From Anaerolineales bacterium (GTDB lineage Bacteria > Chloroflexota > Anaerolineae > Anaerolineales > Villigracilaceae), in assembly GCA_016928525.1 (NCBI GenBank), contig JAFGKO010000119.1:1-5462 (forward strand): a stretch of DNA of 5,462 nucleotides, written 5' to 3'. The translations under genes and the position numbers were made by a program. The first letter of the stretch is position 1; every line of letters starts with the position of its first letter. Below, in pieces: positions 4,300 through 5,462 of this stretch. The notes under the pieces are model-generated. The model ran no database searches, was not told where the DNA came from, and was given only the letters and a program-made list of their open reading frames with translations.

Positions 4300-5058
4300 T
4301 CATCCGTTTTTTCTGGGAAAGCCGAAAATAGCTCCTTGCACTCTGGGTGTCAGGAAAAGGCTTTGTGCCAGCGTCATGTAGGAGCCGCGTACCTCTGCAT
4401 GTTCCCGGCGGTAATCTCTCGCATGTTCTTCTGACCAGAAGAAGACCGATTTCCGTCAGAATGCATCGATGATGCTGGGGTCTTCCAGTTTGCTGAAATC
4501 CACCATGGGGACGAAAACCAGCGGCCTGGCATCTGGATCGGATATGGAATAATTAAGTTCACTATCCATCTCAATGTGCATTTCTTTCCTACAGTGAGCG
4601 CATTCCGTTTGAATGCTGAAAGTCAAGTGCTTTTTTCGGAGTTGCCCTTGCACGAAGGGCGTCGCAATTGCGTCGATACCTCAAGCGGCGTATATCTGTT
4701 CGCCAGTGCTGAAGGTGATGCGATGGGGCGTTTGCTCCACGGTGACCGGGTAAGCCCAGATCACCGCGCCCTCTTCGTTCCGATAGAGGAAGGTCAGTTT
4801 CTTTTCCAACTCGTCCAGAATGGGGATGACCTGCTCCAGTTCCATGTCCAGGCTTTGGGCGATCGTCTCAGGCGGAATCGGCTTCGCAATGCGTGGTATC
4901 TCGCGCACCACAAAATCACGGACTTTGTGATGATCCGTTGTCATAAAGGCCAGCGATTTTTCGGATGCTCGCGCGCTGCGCGTCACTTCCTGTTGCCAGA
5001 TTGGCCGCGGGATACGCAACAAGATGCGCCACAGTCCAAGCAAAAGGCTTTTGTTCAT
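4300..5058 (-). CDS. merB: MerB-like organomercurial lyase homologue, predicted selenoprotein with two Sec
   Basis: Read through two in-frame UGA codons, this frame encodes 252 residues. Residues 1-40 are a basic N-terminal extension; about 45-110 form the winged-helix-like domain of alkylmercury lyases; from about 111 onward is the MerB catalytic domain (PHRITFSTGEQIYAA-U126-GIDAI). In E. coli R831b MerB the matching stretch is YAWCALDTL, so U126 aligns with catalytic Cys96 and D129 with catalytic Asp99. U201 (DAF-U-RKSVFF) aligns with catalytic Cys159 (QSF-C-CHVHFF). A CxxC pair, C153/C156, sits between and provides the only cysteines. MerB breaks carbon-mercury bonds with Cys96, Asp99 and Cys159; whether this homologue acts on mercury or another substrate is open. 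Start ATG 5056-5058 has AGGAG (5065-5069) 6 nt upstream, overlapping the TAG of the hydrolase gene, so translation is likely coupled. The frame ends at UGA 4300-4302, followed by a terminator. The alternative, a pseudogene, is much less likely because both UGAs hit the catalytic cysteines and both carry SECIS-like hairpins. Confidence 0.85.
4426..4443 (-). promoter_or_regulatory. Predicted bacterial SECIS element for Sec201
   Basis: On the minus-strand RNA, UUCUUCU (4443-4437) pairs perfectly with AGAAGAA (4432-4426), leaving the tetraloop GGUC (4436-4433). The loop begins 20 nt after the UGA. The E. coli fdhF SECIS has the same GGUC in its apical loop at nearly the same distance, and its G and U are the main SelB contacts. 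The bulged U of the fdhF stem is not present here. Confidence 0.75.
4456..4458 (-). other. In-frame UGA, predicted selenocysteine 201 (MerB Cys159 position)
   Basis: The codon follows ...PSIIDAF and precedes RKSVFFWSEEHARDYRREH. Aligning the F-F pair with MerB QSFCCHVHFFAS places the UGA exactly on Cys159, the second mercury-binding catalytic cysteine, with no gap in the local alignment. Confidence 0.82.
4644..4660 (-). promoter_or_regulatory. Predicted bacterial SECIS element for Sec126
   Basis: On the minus-strand RNA, GCCCUU (4660-4655) pairs perfectly with AAGGGC (4649-4644), closing a CGUGC loop (4654-4650). The loop starts 27 nt after the UGA, inside the usual bacterial range of roughly 16-37 nt, and has a G in its first two bases followed by U, as SelB binding usually requires. 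Thermodynamic folding was not run. Confidence 0.65.
4681..4683 (-). other. In-frame UGA, predicted selenocysteine 126 (MerB Cys96 position)
   Basis: The codon after ...EQIYAA is UGA, and homology continues at once with GIDAIATPF, matching the MerB pattern Y-A-x-C-A-[IL]-D. The codon thus replaces the nucleophilic cysteine, and the catalytic Asp is kept three residues on. Confidence 0.85.
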
Positions 5059-5067
5059 TGTTTTCTC

Positions 5068-5462
5068 CTAACCGGTTTTCTGCAACCAGGCGGACAGCGC
5101 CGCTTGATATTCTGCCGGGCGCTCCCAATAAGGTGCGTGTCCGGCGCCGGGAATGAGGGCTAATTCCGCGTTGGGCACCAGGGAAGCGATCTTGCGCGAT
5201 TCTTCCGGTGGCACGGTTGGATCGCGGTCACCGGCGATTGCCAGGGTGGGAGCCTGGATTTGCGGTAGCAGGGAAGTGATATCGGTCTCTGGCATGACCG
5301 TAAAATATTGCGCCATGGCATCCAGGTCCAGGTTTTGATAATTGAACAAATTCAATTCGATCACTTCTTCAATATCAGGATTGGCATGCATCGCCCTGGC
5401 TTCGGCGGTATACGTCCGCAGCACGGCTCGGAACAGGCCCGGGCTTGCTCCCGCCGAGCGAT
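5068..5462 (-). CDS. Alpha/beta hydrolase fold protein, C-terminal part (cut by window edge)
   Basis: About 130 C-terminal residues are visible; the frame stays open to the window edge, so the start and the nucleophile elbow (GxSxG) lie outside. Two members of the catalytic triad can be placed: the acid in APTLAIAGDRDPTVPPEES (D of GDRD) and the histidine in IPGAGHAPYWERP. The segment between the edge and about 5320 is the helical cap region. This C-terminal pattern is typical of small soluble alpha/beta hydrolases with esterase, lactonase or C-C hydrolase activity; the substrate cannot be read from it. The TAG stop (5068-5070) overlaps the Shine-Dalgarno sequence of the downstream MerB-like gene, so the two are very probably co-transcribed and translationally coupled. 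A GTG at 5422-5424 is internal, not the start. Confidence 0.88.
   Translation of the reverse strand, partial: RSAGASPGLFRAVLRTYTAEARAMHANPDIEEVIELNLFNYQNLDLDAMAQYFTVMPETDITSLLPQIQAPTLAIAGDRDPTVPPEESRKIASLVPNAELALIPGAGHAPYWERPAEYQAALSAWLQKTG

Follow-up and report, generated by a model that had tools for sequence, protein, structure and literature searches.

A MerB-family gene with UGA at both catalytic cysteine codons, predicted to encode an organomercurial lyase containing two selenocysteines

Why should a gene related to that of the organomercurial lyase MerB be interrupted by UGA at exactly the two codons where MerB has its catalytic cysteines? The question arises from a gene on the minus strand, at 4300..5058, of a 5,462-nucleotide stretch from an Anaerolineales bacterium (contig JAFGKO010000119.1), the whole of which is here termed the window. 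The frame runs from an ATG at 5058-5056 through 252 codons to a terminal UGA at 4302-4300 (4300..4302), and contains no in-frame stops in between other than UGA126 (4681..4683) and UGA201 (4456..4458). Translation with table 11 gives only a 125-residue open reading frame (ORF) ending directly before codon 126; with TGA read as a residue, the window yields 252 residues, including U126 and U201, as a first-pass annotation of this DNA had described. That annotation proposed a MerB homologue with selenocysteine (Sec) at both catalytic positions, an overall reading that our results support. We regard it as nearly certain that the protein carries two Sec residues, and as probable that it is an organomercurial lyase or a lyase of close organometals; the combined explanation that we favour, i.e. 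a MerB-family gene in which both UGA codons are read as Sec to give an enzyme predicted to split C-Hg bonds with two selenolates, is likely to be right. Its basis lies in sequence comparisons: the two UGA codons fall on MerB Cys96 and Cys159, Asp99 and a third Cys are kept, the hairpins after the UGA codons are frozen, and Sec machinery is present in most of the carriers examined.

The relationship to MerB is evident from the Pfam MerB model (PF03243), which matches residues 106-234 with 56.9 bits against a gathering cut-off of 27, and from the predicted fold of the protein, which is a clear MerB fold. A phmmer comparison with a solved, mercury-bound MerB2 (5c17) matches three residues to cysteines: residue 126 to that of 'AWCAIS', residue 153 (codon at 4600..4602) to the conserved Cys that follows, and residue 201 to the final Cys of the alignment; residues 126 and 201 also align with Cys in relatives that have Cys at both columns. 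Alignment with the same Cys/Cys relatives places Asp129 (codon at 4672..4674) on the column of MerB Asp99, where MerB2 itself has Ser. The third conserved Cys, aligned with Cys153, is one which we take to be Cys117 in R831b numbering. The earlier claims that both UGA codons fall on the catalytic cysteines and that Asp99 is retained thus stand. Cys96, Asp99 and Cys159 are the essential residues of MerB (PMC8261052). The window protein shares with MerB (PF03243; PRK13239 / NF033555; 3f0o, 5c17) the fold, the Asp99 equivalent, the third conserved Cys and both catalytic positions, but differs in that the Cys codons at both catalytic positions of canonical MerB are replaced by UGA, as they are in 79/80 relatives, in having <20% identity to solved MerB, in scoring below the equivalog cut-offs, and in that no mer operon was seen around the gene.

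A scan of genomes, using patterns (FFWSEEH and GxVxWAYPVT) that exclude both UGA codons, gave relatives of which the best 80 of 115 were used, all in metagenome-assembled genomes. Their hosts include Chloroflexi/Anaerolineae, Deltaproteobacteria, Desulfobacterales, Acidobacteriota, Rokuibacteriota, Binatia, Abyssobacteria and Zixiibacteriota. TGA is present at codons 126 and 201 in 79 of these 80 loci, the exception being L046 (TGC then TGA), so that codon 201 is TGA throughout (80/80); Asp129 (GAC or GAT) and Cys153 (TGC or TGT) are likewise retained in 80/80. Beyond these, the aligned part contains in-frame stops only at codons 248-250, in 5/80 loci. Full-length relatives finish at about codons 247-252, with aligned TAA or TAG at codons 248-250 in three loci, which is why the terminal UGA of the window gene is taken as a true stop. 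This recurrence implies that the two UGA codons did not arise by chance, in agreement with the first-pass annotation, which had argued against random nonsense mutation and had named decayed frames in relatives as evidence that would count against Sec; no such decay was observed before codon 248. It also bears on the possibility that the gene is a pseudogene disabled by a pair of nonsense mutations, or that the stops are sequencing errors. Standard gene calling does give only a 125-residue ORF, but the identical UGA pair in 79/80 loci of 46-65% identity from several phyla, the absence of other early stops, and the strong amino-acid and synonymous conservation downstream refute this explanation, to which we assign a negligible probability.

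Surveys of whole taxa identified the gene in 8/150 genomes of the Chloroflexota class of G050, in 5/217 genomes of the Acidobacteriota (the phylum of G045), and in 13/155 genomes of the class of G035, which includes syntrophs; some of these carrier genomes overlap with the 80 loci. Wherever both sites are covered, survey carriers have two TGA codons, except for G298, whose partial match contains three. One extra TAG or TAA occurs in four carriers, and is terminal in the two inspected (G012, G397); the match in G358 is a fragment and that in G443 is split into two. The selenoprotein signature of UGA aligned with Cys was observed at both columns: four MerB relatives from carrier genomes (L089, L091-L093) have Cys at position 126 as well as at 201, and one of them, L089, exceeds the MerB equivalog cut-off (204.1 vs 193 bits), and Cys126 is present in L046 and in 17/120 database homologues. 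Since the query alignment held the subfamily of the window gene alone, more distant relatives with Cys at codon 201 would escape the scan.

The database homologues, for which all figures refer to the 120 of 156 listed, fall largely into three classes: 52 stop exactly at residue 125, 17 have Cys126 and stop exactly at 200, and 40 have Trp at both sites (P0003-P0015 and other full-length rows). The first class raises the alternative that UGA126 is mainly a true stop, with a 125-residue N-terminal domain as the product and read-through as a rare by-product. The N-terminal part does have a likeness to winged-helix DNA-binding folds, albeit at low Z (about 5), and these 52 homologues are annotated as ending there; however, the sequence past UGA126 is well conserved, with the catalytic residues in 80/80 loci, and the Cys126 versions continue to UGA201, and we consider this alternative very unlikely. 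The third class could suggest that the carriers read UGA as tryptophan or some other amino acid, as could P0030 and P0052, which have W126 and end at 200. Against such recoding, which the first-pass annotation had likewise judged unlikely, these frames use UGG for Trp (1-7 aligned TGG codons per locus), a zinc-finger gene in the window terminates with UGA, tRNA-Sec and selB are found in carriers, relatives whose DNA lacks UGA at one or both columns carry Cys there instead (L046, L089, L091-L093), and synonymous sites are frozen only after the two UGA codons. Recoding is thus already contradicted and, in our view, less probable still than a true stop at UGA126. The Trp/Trp homologues, seen as protein sequences only, are most likely gene calls made with code 4 on short contigs, and paired Trp at such sites may mark hidden selenoproteins elsewhere.

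If both UGA codons are decoded as Sec, a selenocysteine insertion sequence (SECIS) would be expected after each, and the hairpins that had been noted there are indeed present. SECIS-like hairpin 1 (4644..4660; GCCCUU-CGUGC-AAGGGC) has its loop 26 nt past UGA126, and hairpin 2 (4426..4443; UUCUUCU-GGUC-AGAAGAA) has its loop 19 nt past UGA201; among the window and the 80 loci (81 sequences), loop CGUGC and loop GGUC occur at these distances in 79/81 each. The codons concerned, 134-138 (CCC TTC GTG CAA GGG) and 206-211 (TTC TTC TGG TCA GAA GAA), are nearly invariant, whereas synonyms vary freely at other conserved columns, including those of the scan pattern GxVxWAYPVT. The synonymous freeze is restricted to the stretches after the two UGA codons and is significant for the ten hairpin columns versus 76 others (p=1.7e-7). 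Among those others only Ala125 is equally low: the Ala codon before UGA126 (4686-4684) is exclusively GCC or GCT (77/77 Ala codons), and a pyrimidine thus directly precedes UGA126 there. As judged from the aligned sequences, the frozen hairpin sequence is much stronger evidence than the mere presence of a hairpin. The inner pairs (five in stem 1, seven in stem 2) are formed in 81/81, and pair-keeping changes were observed in both stems, i.e. G-C to U-A in five sequences and to C-G in one at the outer pair of stem 1, and U-A to C-G at two positions of stem 2, in two and in three sequences. The GGUC loop and 19-nt spacing of hairpin 2 recur in all 10 examined members from two further Sec-MerB groups. 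In the SECIS of E. coli fdhF the apical loop is likewise GGUC, some 18-19 nt past the UGA, on a stem of different sequence.

The bacterial SECIS (bSECIS) model, as given in PMC13188914, specifies a loop of 3-9 nt, a stem of 4-16 bp, a G in the first two loop positions, a distance of 16-37 nt from the UGA and a minimum free energy (MFE) of <= -7.5. Both window hairpins satisfy it, with MFE values of -11.7 (hairpin 1) and -8.2 (hairpin 2); its geometry is found in 81/81 sequences at both sites, and its energy limit is reached in 81/81 after UGA126.

The machinery for Sec decoding was examined in 50 of the 80 carriers and in 14 control genomes. The absence of selB and tRNA-Sec had been named by the first-pass annotation as what would speak against Sec; in these relatives of the source genome selB was over cut-off in 42/50 carriers versus 2/14 controls, and tRNA-Sec was over cut-off in 43/50 carriers, with at least 60 bits in 40/50 and the anticodon UCA in all three tRNAs checked. 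In one locus of the Acidobacteriota survey (L119, genome G397; 3743-10245), the gene with two UGA codons (MerB-UU), selA, selD and selB are co-directional, selA following after some 550 bases, and score well over their cut-offs (selA, 539.5 bits with cut-off 267.9; selD, 351 with cut-off 125; selB, 284.5 with cut-off 242.25). The selD of this locus is fused to an AhpD-like domain, and G397 has a second selB elsewhere in its genome.

Several observations weigh against reading both UGA codons as Sec. With respect to the machinery, tRNA-Sec was also over cut-off in 5/14 controls, which implies that the weaker tRNA matches are not all real, and three of the 50 carriers (G013, G017, G029), perhaps incomplete assemblies, have neither selB over cut-off nor tRNA-Sec of at least 60 bits. 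In the three surveys selB is common anyway (24/26 carriers vs 387/496 non-carriers, p=0.06), such that these counts are consistent with Sec decoding without proving it, and the selA, selD and selB of L119 have no tblastn match in the flanks of the 80 loci (0/80). With respect to the hairpins, stem 1 lacks its outermost pair in 9/81 sequences, the bSECIS energy limit after UGA201 is reached in only 65/81, and the model is loose, with 554/1052 background codons satisfying it; compared with synonymous resampling the folding energies are unremarkable (mean z -0.90 for UGA126 and 0.01 for UGA201), and L046 retains hairpin 1 despite having Cys126. Finally, 11 of the 120 homologues fit none of the three classes: P0037 (R126, ending at 200) and P0016 (G126, L201) break the Sec/Cys pattern, as do P0030 and P0052, and the seven others outside it are fragments or poorly aligned rows. 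The expectation that these columns hold Cys or UGA is borne out by L089, L091-L093 and by the 80 loci, but not by P0037, P0016, P0030 and P0052.

By analogy with MerB, we infer a two-selenolate mechanism for the enzyme. SelB and tRNA-Sec would decode both UGA codons, with two insertions per chain; Sec126 would capture an organomercurial R-Hg+, and Sec201 would join as the second ligand, weakening the Hg-C bond. Asp129 would then protonate the leaving carbon, releasing R-H (methane in the case of methylmercury), and Hg(II) would pass to small thiols or selenols, or to a partner. Selenium binds mercury more tightly than sulfur. The likely hosts are bacteria of sediment and groundwater, in many cases probably anaerobes, that meet traces of methylmercury or a similar organometal; under selenium shortage, translation would halt at codon 125 to leave an inactive fragment. 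If correct, the use of two selenolates on one Hg-C bond would be a new lyase design, and would raise the question of how Hg(II) gets released.

It is also conceivable, though we think it unlikely, that the two Sec residues are real but serve another job, i.e. cleavage of another organometal(loid), Hg(II) buffering, or redox chemistry via a Sec126-Sec201 diselenide. The MerB equivalog models (NCBIfam PRK13239 / NF033555) are missed by far (54.5 vs 193 and 43.7 vs 200 bits), so that the substrate is not transferable from MerB, and no conserved mer operon is present around the gene in the 80 loci; both points count against lyase activity on organomercurials. Conversely, the Asp99 equivalent and the third Cys, kept in 80/80 loci, would not be needed by a simple redox pair, and the predicted fold is clearly that of MerB. 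No neighbour gene was seen conserved in more than 12 of the 80 loci, no search having been aimed at Sao models in the flanks. In 10/80 loci a MerR-type regulator is encoded on the same strand no more than 90 nt away, and in 8/80 a MarR-type regulator within 1 kb, one member of each cluster having been tested by Pfam; the former favours a mercury-related role, although MerR-type regulators respond to many signals.

The link to mercury methylation is similarly two-sided. HgcA was over cut-off in 16/50 carriers versus 0/14 controls, leaving 34/50 carriers without it, as might be expected if the enzyme had another job. In the surveys hgcA was found in 2/8 carriers versus 7/142 others in the class of G050 (alone p=0.07) and in 10/13 carriers versus 66/142 others in the class of G035 (E <= 1e-75; alone p=0.03), an enrichment that counts against another job, with a stratified permutation p=0.006 in which kinship is not corrected for. 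At one of the 80 loci (L067; CP070719, a chromosome record; 4219-8738) hgcA and hgcB are near the gene, which points the same way, the order on one strand being hgcA (428 bits, cut-off 275), hgcB (114 bits, cut-off 99), an ORF weakly resembling hemerythrin (scoring below cut-off), an ORF assigned to no family, and MerB-UU.

Other MerB-like groups place the predicted two-Sec enzyme in context. A second group (L097-L101, L104) shares the UGA pair at the catalytic sites but replaces Asp99 by Glu, differs in sequence after the first UGA, and forms a separate branch; the Glu implies that the chemistry varies within the family, which favours a different job for the Sec pair. In one member of this group (L098, G050), inspected by eye, the frame continues into an AAA-ATPase-like C-terminal part. 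A further group (L090, L094-L096) shares UGA at the second catalytic site, followed at 19 nt by the GGUC loop of hairpin 2, but has Cys at the first and forms a separate branch; the two members scored, L090 and L095, fall under both the SaoL and the MerB cut-offs. SaoL, the MerB-like organometallic lyase of the Sec-assisted organometallic (SAO) system (NF040728; Haft & Gwadz 2023, via the accessible part of PMC13188914), is the sole MerB-like selenoprotein in Table 1 of that source, with one Sec in the motif CU, and none of the other two-Sec families in the table is, judged by name, a MerB. The window protein is likewise a MerB-like selenoprotein by prediction, but scores 52.8 bits against the SaoL model (cut-off 140) and would have two Sec residues, one per catalytic position, so that it is set apart by score and by the description in that part of the source. 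No two-Sec MerB was found in the accessible parts of the deep-Sep paper (PMC12013277), PMC9312934 and the GOS paper (PMC2398784), or by full-text literature searches, although a mention in Haft & Gwadz 2023 or Haft & Tolstoy 2025 is possible. The first-pass annotation's statement that no MerB with two Sec had been described therefore holds for the literature searched; given that the one-Sec SaoL is already in print, what is new is Sec at both catalytic positions together with its wide spread.

How much methylmercury is present depends on methylation (hgcAB) as well as on demethylation, the potential for which is, in the literature sampled, commonly inferred from merB genes. Because the two UGA codons truncate the annotated protein before the catalytic residues, ordinary gene finding would leave a likely methylmercury-splitting enzyme unseen: annotation to residue 125 cuts the Pfam match down to its first 20 residues, and a MerB domain is found on none of the 52 listed homologues ending there, such that these genes would escape merB counts. 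It is possible, if somewhat short of probable, that a selenium-based organomercurial lyase family, with Sec at both sites of attack on Hg and carried by uncultured bacteria of several phyla, constitutes a missing methylmercury demethylase, hidden from merB surveys by its UGA codons, often accompanied by hgcA, and able to travel with a selA-selD-selB cassette. The carriers, the two putative SECIS elements and the hgcA link make this proposal directly testable in culture and in metagenomes.

In the window itself, an alpha/beta hydrolase fragment, which belongs to none of the conserved neighbour clusters of the 80 loci, occupies 5068-5460 on the minus strand and ends 9 bases before the start of the MerB-family gene, in the same orientation.
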